Translations under genes and position numbers: made by a program | From: Janthinobacterium sp. | Lineage (GTDB): Bacteria > Pseudomonadota > Gammaproteobacteria > Burkholderiales > Chitinibacteraceae | DNA length: 64,000 bases | NCBI GenBank assembly: GCA_025360045.1 | Contig: JANYCY010000033.1 | Coordinates: 1 to 64,000 of the forward strand | Direction of reading: 5' to 3' | In this document: one piece after another, positions 5,600 to 25,776 of the stretch | Numbering within the stretch: position 1 is the stretch's first letter | Layout of the letters: the number at the start of each line of letters is the position of its first letter | The notes under the pieces: model-generated | Database searches by the model: none | What the model was told of the DNA's origin: nothing | Seen by the model: the letters and a program-made list of their open reading frames with translations, nothing else

Positions 5600-6474
5600 C
5601 AGAAACAGCCCGTATCGTCGCTAGCCACGGCAGGTCTTATATCGTTGAATGCACTCATGGCCAGCGCCTTCGGGCCAGTACCCGTGGCAAAAAAACGGAC
5701 TACGCCTGTGGCGATTTAGTCGACATCCAGATATTGAACGATGAGCAAGCGGTGATTGAGCGCGTATTAGAGCGCAAAACCCTGCTTTATCGCTCTGATG
5801 CCTGGAAAAGCAAGCTGATCGCAGCCAATGTCACCCAGCTGATTATTGTATTAGCCTCGGAGCCTAGCTTTTCTACCGAGCTAATCAGCCGCTGCGCCAT
5901 TGCCGCCGAAGCGGGTGGCATTCAAACCCTAATCTGCTTAAATAAATGCGATTTACCAACGGCGGCGGCGGCAAAAGAGCGGCTGCAATACTTTGTAAAT
6001 TTAGGCTACAACGTGGTTGAAATTTCGGCGCTCGATAATATCGCCCCGCTACGTGCTTCTTTAGTGGGGCATATTTCGGTATTGGTTGGGCAATCGGGCA
6101 TGGGTAAATCCACCATTACCAATGCGCTACTGCCAGACGCTAATGCACGAGTGAATGAGATTTCTATCGCGCTGGACGCGGGTAAGCACACCACCACCAA
6201 TGCCACGTTTTATCATTTGGATGCAGAATCGGCACTGATTGATTCGCCAGGCTTACAGTCTTTTGGCTTGGCGCATATCACGGCGCAAGATTTACCGGCT
6301 TATTTTCCAGAATTGAGAGAGCGAATTGGCACTTGCCGCTTTCATAACTGCCGCCACCGCCAAGAACCAGATTGTGGCATGCGCGCAGGGGTAGAAGAAG
6401 GCACGATTAGCCCACAAAGGCTGGCCCTGCTGCATCGCTTACAAGATGAATTAAGTGCAGGTGAGCGCTATTAA
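5596..6474 (+). CDS. rsgA: Ribosome small-subunit-dependent GTPase
   Basis: Circularly permuted GTPase: LNKCDL, GQSGMGKSTITNALL, DSPGLQSFGL, C-terminal Cys/His zinc motif. Confidence 0.95.
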   Translation: MTETARIVASHGRSYIVECTHGQRLRASTRGKKTDYACGDLVDIQILNDEQAVIERVLERKTLLYRSDAWKSKLIAANVTQLIIVLASEPSFSTELISRCAIAAEAGGIQTLICLNKCDLPTAAAAKERLQYFVNLGYNVVEISALDNIAPLRASLVGHISVLVGQSGMGKSTITNALLPDANARVNEISIALDAGKHTTTNATFYHLDAESALIDSPGLQSFGLAHITAQDLPAYFPELRERIGTCRFHNCRHRQEPDCGMRAGVEEGTISPQRLALLHRLQDELSAGERY

Positions 6475-12770: not shown

Positions 12771-12796
12771 TTGGTATCCCCGAAAGGAATCGAACC
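12771..12796 (-). repeat. attL: partial copy of tRNA-Arg(CCT) 3' end
   Basis: TTGGTATCCCCGAAAGGAATCGAACC matches 25701-25726 (TTGGTATCCCCGACAGGAATCGAACC) with one mismatch. Confidence 0.88.
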
Positions 12797-12903: not shown

Positions 12904-14256
12904 ATGGGCGGTAAATCAAAAGCAGATGGCTTGACCATTTTGCAACTCAAAAGCCAAATAAAAGCTGAGCAACAGCACATTGCAGCCGAAACAGTAAAGC
13001 CACCCAGAAAGATAGCCTGTGGCGCTGGTTTGCAGCTTTGGGTGATGGGTGAAGCCATGTATTGGCGGCTGCCCTATCGCTTTGGCGGTAAGCAGAAGGT
13101 ATTGGCGCTGGGCGTATGCAATCCTGCTAAGCCTGAACTGTCCGAAGCACGAGAAAAAGCACTCGAAGCAAAACGACAGCTTGCCGCTGGCCTAGATCCA
13201 AACCAAGCAAGGCAAGACGACAAACACGCCAAGGCTTATGCCCACGCCAACACCTTTGAAGCCGTCGCCTTAGAGTGGCACGCTAAAGAGCTGGCTAGCG
13301 GTACGTGGAAGCCTAAGCCTGCGCTGATTGTTATGCAAAGGCTCATCGCTAACCTGTTTCCCATGCTTGGCAAACGCCCTATTGAGTCATTAACCACCCG
13401 CGACCTGATGGGGCCGCTTAGAAAACTAGAATCAGCGGGCACGCTAAACGTTGCTAATCGCGTGCGACAGTACACGGCTAGCATCATGCGCCATGCTATC
13501 CAGACCGGACGGATAGATAAAAACCCAGCCTTAGACCTGCAAGGCGCTATCTCTTCGCCTAAAGCATCCCACCACCCCGCGCTACCCTTAAACCAACTCC
13601 CTGAACTATTACAGCGTATTCGCGGCTATACGGGCTTGCAAGTCGTGTGCTGTGCGGCTGAGTTTGCATTGCTCACTGGGGCGCGGTCTTCTGAATTTAG
13701 ATTTTCGCGCTGGTCTGAATTTGATCTAGTGGCGGGTATTTGGACTATTCCAGAAAAGCGTGAGGCCGTCGAAAATGTAAAGTATTCAGAACGGGGCGAA
13801 AAGATGGCCCGTGTAAGGGTTATTTATCTTTCCACACAAGCGGTCACATTATTAAAGTTTATTCAGTCAATCAATGGCAAAGAGCTATTTGTATTTAAAG
13901 GCCAAAAACGTGACACGCCATTAGGTGAAGGAACCATTAATCTAATGCTGAATAAATTAGGATATAGCACCCAGCTAGATATCTGCCTGCATGGTTTTAG
14001 AACCATGATGGTATCAAGCCTAAATGAATCACTTCAATTCAGCGCTGATGCAATTGAGCTTCATATCGGGCATGAAAGTAAAAATGAAGTCAGGGGTATT
14101 TATAATCGCAATGCTCAATATCTAGCAGAGCGCCAAAGAATGCTGCAATGGTGGGCGGATTACTTGCATGTTTTAGAAACAGGGACCTACATACCACCGG
14201 CTGATTTTAAGATTCAAGCGCTGCAAGAGCTGCCTAAGTTACGAGTGGTTGCGTAA
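12904..14256 (+). CDS. int: Tyrosine integrase with N-terminal arm-binding domain (P4-type)
   Basis: RLPYRFGGKQKVLALGVCNPAKPELSEAREKA arm domain; catalytic LLTGARSSEFRFSRW, HGFRTM, HIGHESKNEVRGIYNR. Confidence 0.93.
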   Translation: MGGKSKADGLTILQLKSQIKAEQQHIAAETVKPPRKIACGAGLQLWVMGEAMYWRLPYRFGGKQKVLALGVCNPAKPELSEAREKALEAKRQLAAGLDPNQARQDDKHAKAYAHANTFEAVALEWHAKELASGTWKPKPALIVMQRLIANLFPMLGKRPIESLTTRDLMGPLRKLESAGTLNVANRVRQYTASIMRHAIQTGRIDKNPALDLQGAISSPKASHHPALPLNQLPELLQRIRGYTGLQVVCCAAEFALLTGARSSEFRFSRWSEFDLVAGIWTIPEKREAVENVKYSERGEKMARVRVIYLSTQAVTLLKFIQSINGKELFVFKGQKRDTPLGEGTINLMLNKLGYSTQLDICLHGFRTMMVSSLNESLQFSADAIELHIGHESKNEVRGIYNRNAQYLAERQRMLQWWADYLHVLETGTYIPPADFKIQALQELPKLRVVA

Positions 14257-14318
14257 GGGGCGATAATACCACTTCCCTAAAATGGGGCTAGTGTGGGGTG
14301 GGGGTATACTGTTTTTTC

Positions 14319-14408
14319 GGTGTGACCAGTGTGACCGGTGTGACCACTTTGATTTAAAAGGGATTTTTTTGTATGACCACGTAAAACCAAGGTGTGACCG
14401 GTGTGACC
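14319..14408. repeat. Left iteron array (GGTGTGACC), 90-bp arm of inverted repeat
   Basis: Contiguous 9-mers 14319-14345 (GGTGTGACC-AGTGTGACC-GGTGTGACC), a degenerate GTATGACC, then two at 14391-14408; inverted relative to 24674-24763. Confidence 0.9.
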
Positions 14409-14695
14409 AAAACCGGCTACTGGTCACACGCAAGCCTTGTTTTTATTGAGTTCAACAAATACACGGGTTTTACAGCAGCACAAAAAAACAAAAAACAGGC
14501 GTTTTTTTGATGGTTTTTTATACGCAAAAAAACAGAGTCATATAATACCACTTTCTTACAAAATGCTTTTTTGCTTGGTTTTGTGGTGGGTTGGTACAAT
14601 GGGTAAGTAAGGGCTAGTCCGGCCAGATGAAAACGGGAAACCTTCACCCGCTGCCCTTGTTTCTTCTTGAAGGTTACTTGTTGAAGGGCAGGTAA

Positions 14696-15961: not shown

Positions 15962-16174
15962 ATGACGAGTATGCAATACACAATAGAAAGACTCCTGCCC
16001 TCCGAGGCTGCCAAGCTCCTTGGCAAAGCAGAAAGCACACTTACCCGTGAACGCTCGCGCGGCACTGGGTGCGCCTATTTAAAGGTAAATGGCCGCGTTC
16101 GCTACCTGAAGTCAGATATTGACGCTTACCTGGCAAAGCACAGCCAATCTGTACAGCCCAAGGCGGGTCAATAA
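15962..16174 (+). CDS. Small HTH (excisionase/AlpA-like) DNA-binding protein
   Basis: MQYTIERLLPSEAAKLLGKAESTLTRERSRGTGCAYLKVNGRVRYLKSDIDAYLA; winged-helix excisionase-like. Confidence 0.75.
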   Translation: MTSMQYTIERLLPSEAAKLLGKAESTLTRERSRGTGCAYLKVNGRVRYLKSDIDAYLAKHSQSVQPKAGQ

Positions 16175-16422
16175 TGGCGGCTAAAGTTATTTCCTTGCCC
16201 TGCCAGCCTACGGCACAACCAGCACAGCCCCTTGCTTTGATTAAGTTGCCTGAGGTTTTAAGGCGTACCGCGCTGGGCAAAACAACCATCTATACGCTGA
16301 TTAAATCCGGTGAATTTCCGGCTCAAATTTCTTTGGGTGGTAAATCAGTGGCGTTTATCGAATCAGAAGTAAATCAGTGGATTAGTGACCGTATTAGCGC
16401 TGCCCGTGGGGTGACGGCATGA
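16174..16422 (+). CDS. AlpA-family regulator
   Basis: LIKLPEVLRRTALGKTTIYTLIKSGEFPAQISLGGKSVAFIESEVNQWISDRI. Confidence 0.88.
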   Translation: MAAKVISLPCQPTAQPAQPLALIKLPEVLRRTALGKTTIYTLIKSGEFPAQISLGGKSVAFIESEVNQWISDRISAARGVTA

Positions 16423-16809: not shown

Positions 16810-17096
16810 ACCGACCATTTAGCGAAATAGGCGAAATTACATTAACCGACGGTAGCACGTTGAATATCGGCGAAACGGTGGCAATGATGGCCGCCAATAT
16901 GAAGGCGGATAACCTTGATTTTGACGTGGCCACCCTGCTAAACACCCAGATTGACGGCTTGCAAGCGTGCGAGTGTTTAAGCCCAGAAGCGACGGCGCGT
17001 TTTATGGGGGTAGCGGCGGGGCTGCTTATTCTGGCGCATGAAGTACAAGCCGCGTGTGGGTTAGTGCCTGCTTTACCTAAGGAGGGTTTGCATTGA
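16806..17096 (+). CDS. Hypothetical protein
   Basis: 96-aa ORF, ATGA-overlapped with both neighbours. Confidence 0.6.
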   Translation: MNRPFSEIGEITLTDGSTLNIGETVAMMAANMKADNLDFDVATLLNTQIDGLQACECLSPEATARFMGVAAGLLILAHEVQAACGLVPALPKEGLH

Positions 17097-17803
17097 AACC
17101 GATTACACAAGGCCATATTGTGCCATTTGCCTTGGGTGGCATTGAAGCGATTACAGCCGGTGAAGCGATGTTTGTATCAGTTCGGCATTTATGCGAAGTA
17201 TTCGGGCTTGATTTTAGTAGTCAGCGTAAAAAACTGCTGCCTGACCCTAAATTCAACTGTGGTGATATGACCATGGTTGCCGCTGATGGCAAGATGCGCG
17301 AGTTGCTAACGATCCCACTAGAACAGGTTGCAGGCTTTTTGTATTCGATCAACATCAATAAAGTAAGCCCTGATGTTCGCCAAGCTTTGCTTGATTACCA
17401 AGATGAATGCACCAAGGCATTGAACGATTACTGGACAACCGGCAAAGCAGAACAGCAAACCTTATCGACACAGATGGCCTTTCAGATTGCCGACACACTG
17501 GCGGTGTTTAAAGACGAATACGCGGCTATTTATGGCAAGGCGGCGGATGCGGTGCCGCATTCTGGCTTGTATGCCAAGATTCAGAGCTGCTTAAATCAGG
17601 TGGTATGCGGTGCTGATCGCCTGCCCGATGGGCTGGCCCGTCAAGCCTTGCCTAAAGTGGCGCTTGATCGACTCAAAGACGCGGGAAAAATGCTGCGTAA
17701 GTTGTTTATTCAGGGGGTAAAGCTCAAGGATGCGGCTAAGCAATTGCATAGCGCCTTTCCTGATCCGGTACTTAAGATTGAAACAACGGTAACGCTAGCA
17801 TGA
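17093..17803 (+). CDS. Phage antirepressor with P22_AR_N-like N-terminal domain
   Basis: IVPFALGGIEAITAGEAMFVSVRHLCEVFGLDFSSQRKKLLPDPKF...LTIPLEQVAGFLYSININKVSPDVRQALLDYQDEC. Confidence 0.88.
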   Translation: MKPITQGHIVPFALGGIEAITAGEAMFVSVRHLCEVFGLDFSSQRKKLLPDPKFNCGDMTMVAADGKMRELLTIPLEQVAGFLYSININKVSPDVRQALLDYQDECTKALNDYWTTGKAEQQTLSTQMAFQIADTLAVFKDEYAAIYGKAADAVPHSGLYAKIQSCLNQVVCGADRLPDGLARQALPKVALDRLKDAGKMLRKLFIQGVKLKDAAKQLHSAFPDPVLKIETTVTLA

Positions 17804-17804
17804 G

Positions 17805-18230
17805 CTACGCTATCGGCTTATCTTTCATCGACTCAGGCAAAGGGAAAACAAGTCGCCCTTCCCCTGCGAGCATCTGCCTTACTGACTCTTCCAGTTTGGC
17901 TGCGATATCGCGGCCTGCTTCAAATTGGCTTAATTCATCGTCTGATAAAGGCCGTGACGGCGGCAAAGGTACGGGACTTGTTTCACCCGCGACCATTTGC
18001 CGTATAGATTCAAGCAATTCCGCGCCAATGTCCCGCTGTGCATCGCGGGCGAATAGTTCCGCTTCAGTCATTGGCGTTTTAGATGGCGCTTGGTTGATTC
18101 CTGCCTTGTTTCGGGCGGCGGAAAGCGTCACGGTCGTGCTGCGACCGGCGCGACCGGCGTTCATTTCTCTAACCGATTGCAGTAAATCGGCTTGGAATTG
18201 CACACATTCCTTATCTACTTTTTGGCTCAT
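17805..18230 (-). CDS. Protein of three tandem antitoxin N-terminal-like segments, no HTH
   Basis: Repeats: (1) ADLLQSVREMNAGRAGRSTTVTLSAARNKAGINQ; (2) AELFARDAQRDIGAELLESIRQMVAGETSPVPLP; (3) DDELSQFEAGRDIAAKLEESVRQMLAGEGRLVFPLP. Compare antitoxin at 18531: DEELTAFEANRDIAAELEESVRQMLAGDTHPVPLP. Confidence 0.65.
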   Translation of the reverse strand: MSQKVDKECVQFQADLLQSVREMNAGRAGRSTTVTLSAARNKAGINQAPSKTPMTEAELFARDAQRDIGAELLESIRQMVAGETSPVPLPPSRPLSDDELSQFEAGRDIAAKLEESVRQMLAGEGRLVFPLPESMKDKPIA

Positions 18231-18231
18231 T

Positions 18232-18534
18232 TCAAGCCGCGATGGGTATCACTTCTTGGTTGATTTGCTTGGCGCTGGTCGTGGCTGCAATCTTCAAATC
18301 GTAGGCGGATTGCAGATTAAGCCAGCTTTGCGCGTCCCCACCAAAGTACCGAGCCAAGCGCAAGGCGGTATCGGCACTAATGCTACGGCGTTCGCGCACA
18401 ATATCATTAATCCGCGTGGCGGGAACGTGCAAGGCCACAGCCAAGGCGCGGGCGCTCATCCCCAGCGGGATAAGGTAGTCTTTACGCAAAATCTCCCCCG
18501 CATGAATGGGGCGTATACCGTTGTTGACACTCAT
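18232..18534 (-). CDS. HigA/VapI-type XRE antitoxin
   Basis: IRPIHAGEILRKDYLIPLGMSARALAVALHVPATRINDIVRERRSISADTALRLARYFGGDAQSWLNLQSAYDLK. Confidence 0.9.
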   Translation of the reverse strand: MSVNNGIRPIHAGEILRKDYLIPLGMSARALAVALHVPATRINDIVRERRSISADTALRLARYFGGDAQSWLNLQSAYDLKIAATTSAKQINQEVIPIAA

Positions 18535-18839
18535 ACCGCGTACTTACGCAATATTTCCGGTGTGTCATTGGCGATTTTTAGCAGGGTTTGCGCGGCTTTG
18601 GATGGCTTACGCCTGCCTTGTTCCCATGCTTGCAAGGTCTTAGCAGATACACCCAGCAAGGCAGAAAAAGCGGCTTGTGATAACCCTGTCTTTGCACGCG
18701 CTGCGATGACGGCGGGTAGTGGGACTGGGTGGGTATCACCAGCTAGCATTTGCCTTACTGACTCTTCTAATTCGGCGGCAATATCGCGGTTAGCTTCAAA
18801 GGCGGTTAGCTCTTCATCGCTGAGTGGCTTCGATAACAT
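18531..18839 (-). CDS. YiaG/HigA2-type HTH antitoxin
   Basis: DIAAELEESVRQMLAGDTHPVPLPAVIAARAKTGLSQAAFSALLGVSAKTLQAWEQGRRKPSKAAQTLLKIA. Confidence 0.9.
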   Translation of the reverse strand: MLSKPLSDEELTAFEANRDIAAELEESVRQMLAGDTHPVPLPAVIAARAKTGLSQAAFSALLGVSAKTLQAWEQGRRKPSKAAQTLLKIANDTPEILRKYAV

Positions 18840-19134
18840 CTTTCAACTCCTTCAATTTATGGCCTGCAATGGCTCCGGTGGTGCTTTTGGCATACATAAA
18901 CAGCAAGACAGATTGCCCGTTCGCCATGCGGTTAAAGTAAATCACCCGTACACCACTGGATTTACCCGCCCCTTGGCGCTGCCAACGGATTTTTCTACAT
19001 CCGCCCGACTCTCGGACTACATCCCCAGCTTCGGGATGTTCTGCAAGGTGGGCGGCAAATTCGCCGCGCTCTTCTTCAGTCCAGTAATAAGGCCAAAGCC
19101 GTTGAAATACCGAGGTTTCAATAATTGTGTTCAT
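18814..19134 (-). CDS. RelE/HigB-type toxin
   Basis: MNTIIETSVFQRLWPYYWTEEERGEFAAHLAEHPEAGDVVRESGGCRKIRWQRQGAGKSSGVRVIYFNRMANGQSVLLFMYAKS; internal Met start at 19134. Confidence 0.88.
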   Translation of the reverse strand: MNTIIETSVFQRLWPYYWTEEERGEFAAHLAEHPEAGDVVRESGGCRKIRWQRQGAGKSSGVRVIYFNRMANGQSVLLFMYAKSTTGAIAGHKLKELKDVIEATQR

Positions 19135-19245
19135 TACTTCACTATACGCCAATGTAGGATAGTCCCACAAGGTAGGAGTAAACCACTTGACGCAAGCCGC
19201 AAGCTTGCCTATATTGGCCGTGCTGCATTCAATCATGCAGACGGG

Positions 19246-19296
19246 ATTGGACTCCCGAACGTTAAGGCGGACAAACCGCTACCCAGCGGCTTTTTT
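19246..19296 (+). promoter_or_regulatory. seqA-like element plus terminator, copy 1
   Basis: ATTGGACTcccgaacGTTAAGG (19246-19267) followed by CCGCTacccAGCGGcTTTTTT (19276-19296). Confidence 0.7.
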
Positions 19297-19329
19297 ACGT
19301 CCGTCAACACTATAGATGCGTCCTTTATG

Positions 19330-19400
19330 GCGGGTCGTAGTGGGGGCAGCTTCGGCTGCGCCGGTTTCCTTAACGCCGGTAGTCCAACCCTGCTACGGCC
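19330..19400 (+). ncRNA. C4/P4-CI-like antisense RNA, copy 1 (approximate ends)
   Basis: Hairpin GCAGC-TTCG-GCTGC, then loop CCGGtttCCTTAACgCCGG and GTAGTCCAAccctgCTAC. CCTTAAC (19368-19374) and AGTCCAA (19381-19387) are complementary to elements upstream and downstream. Confidence 0.72.
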
Positions 19401-19461
19401 TACCACCTTCGATTGGACTCGAAGCGGCGGGTTATTCAAACCTGTTAAGGAAGCATTCACC

Positions 19462-19611
19462 ATGCCCAAGCACGCCCGCGTCTTATTTTCCTATTGCACC
19501 GTCATTCTCCTTACCCTTGCCGTCGAGCGTGGCGCTTCTGTGGCCGTCATTCTGGCTACGCTAGCGACTTTTGCGCTGGTGCATGCGATAGGAGGGGCTA
19601 GCCATGAGTAA
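19462..19611 (+). CDS. Small hydrophobic kil-like/Icd-position protein, copy 1
   Basis: 49 aa MPKHARVLFSYCTVILLTLAVERGASVAVILATLATFALVHAIGGASHE; SD in GTTAAGGAAG, which is the seqC target of the antisense loop. Confidence 0.6.
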   Translation: MPKHARVLFSYCTVILLTLAVERGASVAVILATLATFALVHAIGGASHE

Positions 19612-19724
19612 TCATTTAAACCTGTGCCATGGCGTGACTGTCACGCATAAATTAAGCAACGTGCTTGACGCAAGCCGCAAGCTTGCCTATATTGGCCGTG
19701 CTGCATTCAATAGTGCAGACGGGA

Positions 19725-19774
19725 TTGGTCTCCCGAACATACAGGCGGACAAACCGCTACCCAGCGGCTTTTTT
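19725..19774 (+). promoter_or_regulatory. seqA-like element plus terminator, copy 2
   Basis: TTGGTCTcccgaacATACAGG (19725-19745) followed by CCGCTacccAGCGGcTTTTTT (19754-19774). Confidence 0.7.
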
Positions 19775-19807
19775 ACGTCCGTCAACACTATAGCTGCGTC
19801 CTTTATG

Positions 19808-19878
19808 GCGGGTCGTGGTGGGGGCTACTTCGGTAGCGCCGGTTTCCTGTATGCCGGTAGACCAACCCTATTACGGCC
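19808..19878 (+). ncRNA. C4/P4-CI-like antisense RNA, copy 2 (approximate ends)
   Basis: Hairpin GCTAC-TTCG-GTAGC (covaries with copy 1), loop CCGGtttCCTGTATgCCGG and GTAGACCAAccctattAC. Confidence 0.72.
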
Positions 19879-19939
19879 TGCCACCTTCGATTGGTCTCGG
19901 AGTGGTGGGTTACTAAACCCAATACAGGAAGCATCCACC

Positions 19940-20089
19940 ATGCCCAAGCACGCCCGCGTCTTATTCTCCTATTGCACCGTTATTCTCCTTACCCTTGCCC
20001 TCGAGCGTGGCGCTTCTGTGGCCGTCATTCTGGCTACGCTAGCGACTTTTGCGCTGGTGCATGCGATAGGAGGGGCTAGCCATGAATAA
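19940..20089 (+). CDS. Small hydrophobic kil-like/Icd-position protein, copy 2
   Basis: 49 aa MPKHARVLFSYCTVILLTLALERG...; one aa difference from copy 1; SD in ATACAGGAAG. Confidence 0.6.
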   Translation: MPKHARVLFSYCTVILLTLALERGASVAVILATLATFALVHAIGGASHE

Positions 20090-20327
20090 TCATTTAAACC
20101 TGCTCCAAACCGTGACGGTCACGCATTCGATGGCTAATGCCCATTTGGCAGCGGATGACTACATCCCGACAGCCGCAACGGATATGTATGTATCCATCGC
20201 GCTGCAATTGGCGTTTGAATGCCTGCAAGGGGTGAAGCATCCGCAAGATTGCTATTTTCAATCCTTGCTCGCGCTGGACTATTTACAGCCGGTGATAGCC
20301 TTGATTAAGGAGGCTAATCATGCGTAA
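20082..20327 (+). CDS. Hypothetical protein
   Basis: 81 aa, ATGA-type overlap with the preceding kil-like ORF; its N-terminus (M.NHLNL..TVTH) is duplicated at 19604. Confidence 0.6.
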   Translation: MNNHLNLLQTVTVTHSMANAHLAADDYIPTAATDMYVSIALQLAFECLQGVKHPQDCYFQSLLALDYLQPVIALIKEANHA

Positions 20328-20461: not shown

Positions 20462-20995
20462 ATGGAAAAAATCGCTATTGGTATAGCGGGCGGGGATTCT
20501 TGCGCCCAAGATTCAGGATTTAGTGGCTATTCAAGCCAGCCAAGCCGTCCAAACCCAGCAAGAAAGCCCAAGCGTAGCCGCAAACCGCATATTGAGCCTG
20601 AGCCGCTGGCTAGTGAGCAGGAAACACCACCGCCGACCATCTGGGGCTTGGAGGACTTAAAAGATGAGGATACGCGGCGCTTCTTTATGGCGTTTTCAGC
20701 GAGTCATTGTAATTCTAGCAATAACGCTACCGCCTTTATCTTGTGTCAATTTGAACAATTTAGCGCTGCGGATCGTCAAGCGAACAAAGCGCGGACATTA
20801 GCTGTTACGCACGGCTTGGAATCGCTGCTCATTGGCTTGGAACAAGCGTCTAATTTAGTGGATGCGGTATCGGCCTCGATGAGTAGTGGAGCGCCTTTAA
20901 ACGATCAAGCGGTGGCTAGTGCCTTAGCCGGTATTGTTGGGATTCTGGATCAGCACACCCGTACCGCCGGTGCGCTGGTGGATCTGACACTATGA
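20462..20995 (+). CDS. Hypothetical protein
   Basis: 177 aa; stop overlaps the primase start (ATGA). Confidence 0.65.
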   Translation: MEKIAIGIAGGDSCAQDSGFSGYSSQPSRPNPARKPKRSRKPHIEPEPLASEQETPPPTIWGLEDLKDEDTRRFFMAFSASHCNSSNNATAFILCQFEQFSAADRQANKARTLAVTHGLESLLIGLEQASNLVDAVSASMSSGAPLNDQAVASALAGIVGILDQHTRTAGALVDLTL

Positions 20996-22008
20996 CCGCC
21001 CGCCTTGATATAGCAGCCCTTAAAGATGCGGCCCGTGATCGTTGGCCCCTTATCTTGCAAGCCGCCGGTGTGGATCTGGCTTTTCTTAAAAACAAGCACG
21101 GCCCATGCCCTGTATGCGGTGGCAAAGACCGCTTTCGGTTTACCGACAAAGACGGGCGCGGCGGGCATATTTGTAATCAGCATTGCCCTGATGGCGGTGA
21201 CGGCTTCCGGCTGCTGATGGATTACCGTCAAAGCGACTTTATCAGCGCGGCGCGGTTTGTGGCTGAGGTATTAGGCGGCGCGGCTGTGGCGGCGATTGCA
21301 CCCAATGCGGCGGCCATAGCAGAGCGCAAGGCATTAGAAGACGCTGAGCAGCGGCGGGCATGGGAAAAAGCCAAGGCTGAGAATTTCGCCCTGTGGCATA
21401 GCAGCTTTCCTATTCAGGCCGATAGCACCGTGGGCCTGTATTTACGGCATAGGGGGCTAGCGCTGAGCGAGTACCCCAAGGCTTTACGCTTTAATCCGGC
21501 CTTGCCCTATTGGGATAAGGTGGATGGTAAGCTGATTAAGCTAGGCAACTATCCCGCCATGATTGCCGCCGTACAAGCGCCCAATGGCGGTGCGGTGGCG
21601 CTGCATAAAACCCACCTTCAAGCCAATGGTCACAAGGCCCAAGTCCCCAGCGTTAAAAAGTGGAGCGCTAAATCTGCTGATGCAAAAGGCGCGGCGGTGC
21701 GCTTGTTTCCTGCTGCTTCCCGTATGGCAGTAGCAGAAGGCATTGAAACCGCCTTAGCCGTTTATAGCGCTAATGCCTTGCCGGTATGGGCTGGCTTATC
21801 GGCCTTTGGCGTGGCGGCTATGGTATTGCCTGAGTATGTGCAAGAGGTGTTTATTTTTGCCGATCATGACGAAAACCAAACCGGCCAAAAAGCGGCTAAT
21901 CAACTGGCTGAACGGCTGATAAGCCAAGGCAAAACCGTAAGAGTTTTATACCCAAGCATCGCCGGTGTGGATTGGCTGGATGTACTAACAAAAGCAGAGA
22001 AGAAATAA
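20992..22008 (+). CDS. P4-alpha-like primase (zinc finger + Toprim)
   Basis: CPVCGGKDRFRFTDKDGRGGHICNQHC; Toprim VAEGIETALAVYSANALPVWAGLSAFG...VFIFADHDEN. Confidence 0.93.
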   Translation: MTARLDIAALKDAARDRWPLILQAAGVDLAFLKNKHGPCPVCGGKDRFRFTDKDGRGGHICNQHCPDGGDGFRLLMDYRQSDFISAARFVAEVLGGAAVAAIAPNAAAIAERKALEDAEQRRAWEKAKAENFALWHSSFPIQADSTVGLYLRHRGLALSEYPKALRFNPALPYWDKVDGKLIKLGNYPAMIAAVQAPNGGAVALHKTHLQANGHKAQVPSVKKWSAKSADAKGAAVRLFPAASRMAVAEGIETALAVYSANALPVWAGLSAFGVAAMVLPEYVQEVFIFADHDENQTGQKAANQLAERLISQGKTVRVLYPSIAGVDWLDVLTKAEKK

Positions 22009-23891
22009 TGACGGAAACCGTATTGATTGAAGGTTTAGGGGCGGATTTGGAGCGCCTTAAAAATCCAGAAACAACCCCGCCTTTAGGGGTAAAAGCAGAC
22101 GCTACCCAAACCGCCGCCAAACCTAAAGCAAAGGCTAAGACCAACACAGTAAAAACCAGTGGCGGCCATTTTAAAGCCAGCGATGAGGGTGTTTTTTATC
22201 AGGCTGATGAGGCGGAACCTAGAAAGATTTGCGGGCCGCTGTGGCTGGTGGCCCAAGTTAGAAACGTAGATGGTGCGGGCTGGGCGGTACTGGTTAAGCT
22301 GCATGATCTGGATGGCTGCGAGAAAGAGCACATGATCTCGCGCTCTAAGCTGCTATCGGATCAATCAAGCCGCGTATTAGAAGAGCTGGCCGACCTTGGC
22401 TTATGGTTTAGCTTTGCCCCAGATACTAAAAAGCTGTTGCTGCAATATTTGCAATCAGGGGCGGAAGTCCATAGGGCGCGATTAATTCCGGCTACAGGCT
22501 GGCATGAAGGGGCCTTTGTCTTGCCGGATGAAATTATAGGCCGTACTGATGAAGCATTAATCTACTCAGGCAAGCTTAAACCGCCCATAGGGGTAATGGG
22601 AACGCTTGAGGGCTGGCGCGATGGCGTGGCCCGTTTAGCGCTAGATAACCCGCTCTTTTTGCTAATGCTGGGTTCTGGTTTTGCAGGGCCGCTATTGCGT
22701 TTATCTGGCCTTGATTCTGGCGGCTTTCATATCGCTGGCTATTCAAAAACCGGTAAAAGCACGGTGTGCGATATGGCCGCTTCTATCTATGGAGCGCCTA
22801 AAGGCTACCGCCAAACATGGCACGGCACAGCCACCGGCATTGAATACACCAGTGCGGCTTTTAATGATCTGCCTTTAGTACTAGATGAGATTGGGCAAGC
22901 TGAGCCAAAGGCGGTAGATACCGTGGTGTATATGCTGAGCCAAGGGCAAGGCAAGGCGCGGGGCCGTGATAGCGGCGGCTTGCGTGAGGCTACGCGCTGG
23001 TGCTGCTTTGTGCTTTCAAATGGCGAACATGATCTAGCTACCCATTTAAAAATGGGCGGTAAAGAGATTAAAGCAGGGCAAGCGGTGCGCTTAATGTCAT
23101 TACCGGCTAGGCGGGTGCATGGTGCGCTGGATGAATTACACGGCTTTGCTGATACACCAGCGCTTTGTGCTGCGGTGGCCAATGCGGCTAAGTTGCATCA
23201 TGGTGCGGTAGGCCGTGCCTTTCTTGAATCACTGGCCCATGCTGATCGAGCACAGCTAACCCTTCAATTAAGGGAAGCGCTGAATAAGTTTGCGCTTGAA
23301 TGCGTGCCGGTGGCTGCATCTGGCCAAGTAAGACACGCGGCACAGTATTTTGCTTTAGCGGCGTATGCGGGAGAGCTGGCCAGTAGCTACAACCTGACCG
23401 GCTGGCCGCTGGGTACGGTGTGGAATGCGGCTAAAGTGATGTTTGCTGACTGGTTACAGCATCGAGGCGGCGCTGATGATGAGGAAAATAAGCAAATCAT
23501 TCGCCAAGCCCGCTATTTCTTTGAACAGCACGGCATGTCACGCTTTCATCGCTGGAATGATGAAGTCAACACCGTCATAGATACCCACGGCCCTAAAACG
23601 CTGGGGATGTGTGGCTTTGCTAAGACCGTGGATATTGCTATTAATGGGCAGTTTACGGACGTCAAAGCCTCTGAGGTCACGTATTACGTTTACCGTGAAT
23701 CATGGGCCAATGATGTGCTAAAAGACCGTGATTTAAAGCGGGCCAATAAGCTGCTACTTGAAATGGGCGTACTTACCCCCGCCAAAGATGGCAAAGCCTC
23801 ACAATCCAGAAAATTACCTGGCAGTGGCCGCGCTAATGTCGGGGTCTATGTGGTGAATCCGGCCATGCTTTACAGTGGTGGCGATGATTAG
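22008..23891 (+). CDS. DUF927-type replicative helicase/ATPase
   Basis: Walker A HIAGYSKTGKSTVCDMAASIYG, Walker B LPLVLDEIGQA; start at 22008 (TAATG overlap). Confidence 0.9.
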   Translation: MTETVLIEGLGADLERLKNPETTPPLGVKADATQTAAKPKAKAKTNTVKTSGGHFKASDEGVFYQADEAEPRKICGPLWLVAQVRNVDGAGWAVLVKLHDLDGCEKEHMISRSKLLSDQSSRVLEELADLGLWFSFAPDTKKLLLQYLQSGAEVHRARLIPATGWHEGAFVLPDEIIGRTDEALIYSGKLKPPIGVMGTLEGWRDGVARLALDNPLFLLMLGSGFAGPLLRLSGLDSGGFHIAGYSKTGKSTVCDMAASIYGAPKGYRQTWHGTATGIEYTSAAFNDLPLVLDEIGQAEPKAVDTVVYMLSQGQGKARGRDSGGLREATRWCCFVLSNGEHDLATHLKMGGKEIKAGQAVRLMSLPARRVHGALDELHGFADTPALCAAVANAAKLHHGAVGRAFLESLAHADRAQLTLQLREALNKFALECVPVAASGQVRHAAQYFALAAYAGELASSYNLTGWPLGTVWNAAKVMFADWLQHRGGADDEENKQIIRQARYFFEQHGMSRFHRWNDEVNTVIDTHGPKTLGMCGFAKTVDIAINGQFTDVKASEVTYYVYRESWANDVLKDRDLKRANKLLLEMGVLTPAKDGKASQSRKLPGSGRANVGVYVVNPAMLYSGGDD

Positions 23892-24252: not shown

Positions 24253-24673
24253 ACCGGTATAAGCCGCTTTAGCCTCTCCCTTTATAAGATGACAAGGTCA
24301 TTAGCGTTTGCTGATGGCCTTTGTTTTTGTGTGCTACTTAGGCGCTTACCCTTGTCTATTTGCTTTCTATTGTTGTTTTAAATAAGAAAGCATTTAGAAA
24401 ATATATAGCATTGTGGGCCGTGTACTATTCGGCTTACAAATTAGCGTAAACCCCATCAAAACCATGTGATCGTTTCTTGCTTTGGCATTAGCTGCTGGTG
24501 GTGTTTTATGCTGATGAGGCAAGCGTGAGCACCTGCTTTAATCGCTGCATAAAACCACTAAGGGCAAGGCGGTATGCCCTAGCTTACCCACTCCTCTTTT
24601 TCCCTATCCCTTGCTAAGCCCTTTGTTTAAAAGGGTTTACGCCTCTTTCGCTGTCTTTCTCACTTGCCAATCT

Positions 24674-24763
24674 GGTCACACCGGTCACACCTTGGTTTTA
24701 CGTGGTCTCACAAAAAAAACCCTTTAAAATCAACGTGGTCACACTGGTCACACCGGTCACACC
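24674..24763. repeat. Right iteron array (GGTCACACC = reverse GGTGTGACC), 90-bp arm of inverted repeat
   Basis: 9-mers at 24674-24691 (x2) and 24737-24763 (x3), mirror image of 14319-14408. Confidence 0.9.
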
Positions 24764-25032
24764 AGAAAAACACCCACCCCCTACCCCCGATGTGCTGCTA
24801 TGGCGCACAGGGGGAACACCTTCGCGCTCGTTTTGTGATATTTACACACTGTAAGGATTGCTGTTTTTTAGCTTGGCTTAACCTGTTTCTATTTCTGCAT
24901 ATTTGTAAGATAAAACAATAACCATCTTGCTATCACTCAGACAATAGCCTTTAAATCTTACGCCACCAAGTGGGGCGCAAGGGAACAAACCAAGCTAAGG
25001 CCCCACCCCATCCGGCATGGTGTATATCACTA

Positions 25033-25072
25033 TTTTAAGTTCGACCATGTACTTAAGGTATGACCGGTGTGG
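25033..25072. repeat. Left arm of ~40-bp inverted repeat containing an iteron-like motif
   Basis: TTTTAAGTTCGACCATGTACTTAAGGTATGACCGGTGTGG, reverse-complementary to 25377-25420 over about 30 nt with one mismatch. Confidence 0.85.
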
Positions 25073-25376: not shown

Positions 25377-25420
25377 CCGGTTACACCAGTCACACCTTAA
25401 GTACATGGTCGAACTTAAAA
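25377..25420. repeat. Right arm of ~40-bp inverted repeat containing iteron-like motifs
   Basis: CCGGTTACACCAGTCACACCTTAAGTACATGGTCGAACTTAAAA. Confidence 0.85.
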
Positions 25421-25591: not shown

Positions 25592-25701
25592 AAGAGCGGC
25601 TGTAGGGGGTATTTGGCGCACTGTGGCGGAAACAAAAAACCCCGCAAGCGGCATGTTTGCAGGGTTTAGAGAACTTACACGGACTAGGCTGAACTGGTGC
25701 T

Positions 25702-25776
25702 TGGTATCCCCGACAGGAATCGAACCTGTATCTAGCGCTTAGGAGGCACTTGTACTATCCGTTGTACTACGAGGAC
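25702..25776 (-). tRNA. tRNA-Arg (anticodon CCT)
   Basis: Reverse strand GTCCTCGTAGTACAACGGATAGTACAAGTGCCTCCTAAGCGCTAGATACAGGTTCGATTCCTGTCGGGGATACCA: 7-bp acceptor, TTCGATTC T-loop, CCT anticodon, encoded CCA. Confidence 0.95.

Follow-up and report, generated by a model that had tools for sequence, protein, structure and literature searches.

Two complete P4-CI/C4 antisense RNA modules of differing predicted specificity in series in a P4-like satellite island

Introduction

Immunity exerted by a C4/CI RNA of a single specificity is textbook knowledge, and members of the C4 antisense RNA class are processed by RNase P to an RNA of roughly 80 nt. The window analysed here, a stretch of 64,000 nucleotides from a bacterial genome, carries two such RNAs side by side with different recognition letters, and so raises the question of what one element would do with two immunity RNAs and how it came by them. 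In phage P4, the CI RNA pairs with seqA and seqC, leading to premature termination of transcription (PMC4825925). In the c4 RNAs of phages P1 and P7, the a' loop determines which target is recognised and the b' loop covers the ribosome-binding site, and the two phages are heteroimmune through these RNAs (PMC5320573, PMC12197685). P1 and P7 (icd/ant) each carry one specificity in separate phages, whereas the window RNAs, which belong to the same C4 family, bring two specificities into one element. A single genome of Acinetobacter baumannii encodes 21 similar C4-like sRNAs of group 1 with variable a', but these are not described as arrayed modules, with seqA and seqC to match, ahead of replication genes (PMC5320573).

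Results

Both RNAs belong to complete modules of the P4 family

An earlier note on this DNA had described tandem P4-CI/C4-type modules, and all of the tandem elements it named were found where it had placed them, correct to the base. The family assignment was borne out by a search with the Rfam C4 model, in which C4/CI antisense RNA 1 (19323-19410, 73.5 bits) and RNA 2 (19801-19888, 75.4 bits) matched RF01695 over the full model and cleared its gathering score of 45 bits. Because phage P4 gave both a C4 match at cI (74.9 bits) and an isrK match over seqA in the same search, the window module can be placed in that family; the seqA of P4 is isrK- and a1b1-like, and its elements follow the order seen in the window modules. 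The P4 order proposed for the locus was recovered in full: promoter, seqA with terminator, CI RNA, seqC, small ORF and replication genes, all on the plus strand.

Module 1 opens with a putative promoter (TTGACG-17-TATATT, 19187-19215; consensus match only), followed by a seqA/isrK-like leader segment (19222-19296) in which a terminator scan placed a hairpin at 19276-19289; its Rfam isrK match (41.1 bits, E 3e-7) lies under the isrK gathering score. The seqA a-site TTGGACT (19247-19253) and b-site GTTAAGG (19261-19267) face the loops b' CCTTAAC (19368-19374) and a' AGTCCAA (19381-19387) of C4 RNA 1. Both sites recur in seqC, at 19413-19419 (TTGGACT) and, overlapping the Shine-Dalgarno sequence, at 19444-19450 (GTTAAGG), just ahead of a hydrophobic 49-aa ORF (19462-19611). 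Module 2 repeats this layout, with a putative promoter of the same consensus form (19665-19693; again a consensus match only), an isrK-like leader segment (19700-19774, Rfam isrK) with a terminator at 19754-19767 from the same scan, seqA sites a (TTGGTCT, 19725-19731) and b (ATACAGG, 19739-19745), C4 RNA 2 loops b' (CCTGTAT, 19846-19852) and a' (AGACCAA, 19859-19865), seqC sites a (TTGGTCT, 19891-19897) and b (ATACAGG, 19922-19928, overlapping the Shine-Dalgarno sequence), and a second hydrophobic 49-aa ORF (19940-20089). The locus thus has the RNA family and element order of P4, and in both an isrK-like seqA carries a terminator and seqC covers the Shine-Dalgarno sequence; P4 has one module, however, whereas the window island has two, each with its own promoter and lettering.

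The 478-bp tandem duplication reported previously holds as a 478-bp offset; the homologous units themselves, however, are 463 bp each (19186-19648 and 19664-20126; 41 differences, 91% identity), with a unique 15-nt stretch (19649-19663), for which no homologue was found, between them. The repeated unit runs from the -35 box to a point within the following ORF (81 aa, 20082-20327, plus strand), whose first codons also form the 3' end of unit 1 (19604-19648). PHROG searches with the 49-, 81- and 177-aa ORFs returned no match for any of them, and Pfam searches returned none for the 177-aa ORF and a sub-threshold match only for the 81-aa ORF. Frames at 17800-19611 and 19604-20089 stay open across each leader and C4 RNA, in frame with the 49-aa ORF, and are candidate Icd/Ash-like frames.

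Matched lettering predicts two orthogonal switches

Four substituted positions separate the modules and, as had been noticed, each is matched in seqA, C4 loop and seqC of its own copy, so that each copy is predicted to pair strongly with itself and weakly with the other. Were substitutions independent and as frequent as observed, the four seqA changes would all be matched at both other sites with a probability of about 1e-13. Computed for isolated duplexes, and hence irrespective of folding, loop geometry and any effects of Hfq or RNase P, cognate loop-target energies ranged from -9.0 to -14.4 kcal/mol, compared with -2.2 to -5.9 kcal/mol for non-cognate pairing of copy 1 with copy 2 at the same sites. 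The cross-pairing calculation therefore agrees with the suggestion of an orthogonal pair, with cognate pairing predicted to be strong and non-cognate pairing weak at all four sites.

Covariance across homologues pointed the same way, with conserved pairing present and all four helices covarying in Watson-Crick fashion. In a sequence-only alignment of 45 leaders, the observed pairing was reached by 0 of 1,000 row shuffles, and several helix positions held three or four Watson-Crick types. Chance repeats are ruled out by the matched triple changes together with this covariation. We also considered matched co-variation itself as the novelty of the locus and rejected this, as it is general in C4 RNAs: 223 distinct C4 loci comprised 203 specificities, and complementarity to the own leader far exceeded that to other leaders. 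Since matched change is the norm for C4, the finding lies in the tandem arrangement. Specificity consists of a few loop letters and their matched targets, with natural variants one to four letters apart. The two sister islands closest to the window island, G001 and G008, add two further b' alleles, both with matching targets; in a', G001 is lettered like copy 2 and G008 like copy 1. A third C4 RNA of the host genome (G000:C83:81616-81701; L003, L096) has a third, fully matched specificity, with b' CCATTTGC and a' ACGCCAA.

The modules lie in a P4-like satellite island

As judged from its sequence, the window holds a 13-kb (12.96-kb) P4-like satellite island inserted in tRNA-Arg; the closest matches of the host genome (G000) are an Iodobacter MAG and a related MAG. 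The island is bounded by a 26-nt direct repeat, of which the left copy (12771-12796), a partial copy of the tRNA-Arg 3' end, is 96% identical to the right copy (25701-25726) within the 3' end of tRNA-Arg(CCT). On its plus strand follow a tyrosine integrase (12904-14256; Pfam Phage_int_M, Arm-DNA-bind_3 and Phage_integrase), an int-alpA RNA (14607-14673; Rfam RF02996, 51.2 bits), an AlpA-type regulator (16174-16422; PF05930), an antirepressor-like protein (P22_AR_N, 17093-17803; PF10547, PHROG anti-repressor Ant) and, beyond the modules, a TOPRIM primase (20992-22008; Pfam, PHROG DNA primase) and a DUF927 primase/helicase-type replication protein (21972-23891; PF06048, PHROG). Two clusters of 9-bp iterons face each other and flank the island interior, one (GGTGTGACC, 14295-14409) being P4 ori/crr-like by position and the other (GGTCACACC) lying at 24673-24787; they form the arms of a 115-nt inverted repeat and are likely replication sites. 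As iterons occur at two separate places in P4 too (crr and ori), the island is a P4-like satellite by content, with integrase, AlpA regulator, primase/helicase, iterons and tRNA attachment repeats all present. AlpA-type regulator, primase/helicase, iterons and tRNA-type integration are common to both elements, but the cI/kil protein genes and the capsid-hijacking genes sid, delta and psu of P4 were not named among the island ORFs scanned.

Upstream of module 1, a minus-strand cluster of small genes (17808-19134), probably a toxin-antitoxin cassette, encodes two Xre-like HTH proteins and gave a weak match to RelE. Near the right end of the island lies a 38-nt inverted repeat (95%; arms 25033-25070 and 25383-25420, with 312 nt between them). 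The middle of the DUF927 gene (22500-23500) is a mosaic segment, with 63-77% identity to sister island L059 compared with about 90% in neighbouring stretches.

Arrays recur in other satellites and prophages

The earlier note was aware of no tandem dual-specificity array. This stands for the literature searched, in which no description of tandem C4/CI modules was found (older P4 papers lie outside that search), but the architecture is shared by six other contigs (G754, G167, G723 and the IMG/VR contigs L194, L237 and L185), each with two to four differently lettered C4 modules on the same strand, spaced by 0.35-5.4 kb. New here, within that literature, are thus arrays of two to four orthogonal modules per element. 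Close arrays occurred in at least four of the approximately 130 C4-positive genomes listed, a frequency that is a lower bound.

The largest array seen, L317 (G754:C9, 1496-3350), packs four tandem C4 modules into 1.4 kb; the island that holds them is P4-like, encodes AlpA, a DUF927 protein and an integrase, and has its replication gene after the array. Its a' loops read GTTCGAA, AGGTCAA, CTGCTAA and ATGCGAA, its b' loop is common to three modules, and every module has matched seqA and seqC. Leaders or ORFs of the G754 modules reappear at further C4 loci of that genome, which points to module shuffling; like those of the window, the G754 modules are crossed by long open frames. G167, G723 and contig L194 carry two modules each, followed by Bro-N, Rha, Ant or ORF6N genes, so that these prophage arrays gate antirepressor-type genes, whereas the window array precedes replication genes. 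L237 has two modules ahead of duplicated DUF6124 genes, with a weak seqA match, and the three modules of L185 lie 4.6-5.4 kb from one another. Across the arrays examined, all 14 of 14 within-array pairs differed in a'; since the same a' is shared by 9% of random pairs from the C4 pool, chance sampling of that pool would give this too. The difference argues against recent duplication, and selection for difference is a possible but not a necessary reading.

Origin of the pair

Comparison with the sister islands suggests that recombination between islands of differing immunity is the most likely origin of the array. Duplication in place followed by co-divergence, the origin proposed previously, is disfavoured by the single modules of G001 and G008, the closest sister islands, and by a sharp mosaic break at 19234. 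Between 16803 and 19233 (2,431 bp), a single difference separates the window island from that of G001; from 19234 onwards, module 1 departs from the G001 module, with 40 differences in 463 bp. Copy 2 differs from the same module at 33 of 463 positions, and the two copies differ from each other at 41 of 463. The leader without its specificity sites tells the same story (18/185 between the copies; 16/185 and 14/185 between G001 and copies 1 and 2, respectively), as does the 49-aa ORF (4/150 bp between the copies; 3/150 and 4/150 to G001). In none of these comparisons are the copies closer to each other than to a single-copy homologue, as a tandem duplication would have them. Among the site patterns, seven group copy 2 with G001 and three group the two copies, and 3' of module 2 the divergence from G001 is about 5% over the next 334 bp. 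A duplication younger than the G001 split is hard to fit to these figures, whereas the joining of two different modules fits them.

That one module was duplicated in place and then diverged with compensation would account for units that are 91% identical, share an exact 5' boundary at the promoter and carry nearly identical 49-aa ORFs. We nevertheless regard it as improbable, because the copies are no closer mutually (41/463) than to G001 (40 and 33/463) beside an upstream arm with 1 difference in 2,431 bp, and because the 81-aa ORF segment at the tail of unit 1 differs from the resident allele. An old duplication, with one module then lost in the sister islands, is possible. An assembly artefact that fused two strain variants is conceivable in a draft genome of 97 contigs, but we give it hardly any credence given the 15 nt of unique sequence and the distinct 81-aa ORF start at the junction, and comparable arrays in independent assemblies. 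As for a source under recombination, a junction-pattern search of 43 family genomes and a search of viral contigs revealed no donor of module 1, and a DNA search of phage and plasmid records found no close match.

Discussion

Proposed working and role of module 1

The sequence shows two complete P4-CI/C4 modules in series in the island, and on the evidence as a whole we consider it reasonably probable that recombination brought them together and that module 1 would find its likeliest use in trans. By analogy with P4, a transcript from each module's own promoter would traverse seqA, the C4/CI RNA and seqC, and the a' and b' loops of the processed C4 RNA would then pair with seqA and, across the Shine-Dalgarno sequence, with seqC. 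As a proposed consequence, the small ORF would stay untranslated and transcription would end before the replication genes. Since loop and target lettering differ between the modules, each RNA is predicted to silence only its own leader. Under P4 logic, transcripts started at either promoter should be stopped by C4 RNA 2 ahead of the replication genes; C4 RNA 1 could stop only those from promoter 1. Module 2, which adjoins the replication genes, would by this analogy suffice for the island's own control, and module 1 would be dispensable for it. As module 1 alone could not shut the second promoter, its likeliest use would be in trans: C4 RNA 1 could act on incoming elements bearing leader 1 and render the host immune to relatives of a second specificity. 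We favour such trans-acting immunity with moderate confidence, and a broadening of superinfection immunity by the pair, as suggested earlier, is plausible. Specificity 1 or 2 was found nowhere else in the 43 family genomes (junction pattern), the viral contigs (seqA pattern) or the fetched C4 loci, so that a trans target is hypothetical.

Two other accounts of the pair deserve weight. The modules might be kept solely for self-contained control, each of its own downstream gene, with the lettering merely avoiding cross-talk and no immunity in trans. Elsewhere the arrangement would suit this, as prophage array modules each precede their own Bro-N, Rha, Ant or ORF6N gene and different G754 modules precede different ORFs; in the window, however, the 49-aa ORFs that follow the two modules are almost identical (4 differences in 150 bp), which leaves little for separate gene control to explain, and we think this account rather unlikely. 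Somewhat less likely still, the pair could have arisen by recent recombination and have no selected role, one module being due to be lost. The single-module state of the two closest sister islands and the count of array-bearing genomes given above would agree with such transience, but each module is intact, with all its sites matched, and unrelated hosts repeatedly carry arrays, with up to four modules. We retain use of module 1 in trans as the preferred reading.

Arrays as a possible immunity repertoire

More tentatively, and as a possibility to which we assign less than even weight, recombination may let satellites and prophages gather C4 modules of different lettering, and the resulting arrays may act as a multi-specific RNA immunity repertoire, in which one module controls the owner's replication and the others exclude competitors of other immunity groups. 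If this were true, up to four specificities would be combined in one island. With several C4 specificities possible in one element, such arrays open the evolution of satellite immunity groups to direct tests, and tandem C4 modules offer ready-made orthogonal antisense switches.

A few specificities of array modules also occur in other phages (L316, L214, L203, L152 and L141), which could be coincidence; a further match, L188, was discarded as a shared specificity because it is not a C4. Dispersed C4 RNAs reach 28 to 37 per genome in G014 and in G435, G438, G439 and G447 of family f27. The contig with the two-module array L194 also carries, on its minus strand (5838-5904), an Rfam match to a type II hammerhead ribozyme (52.6 bits).
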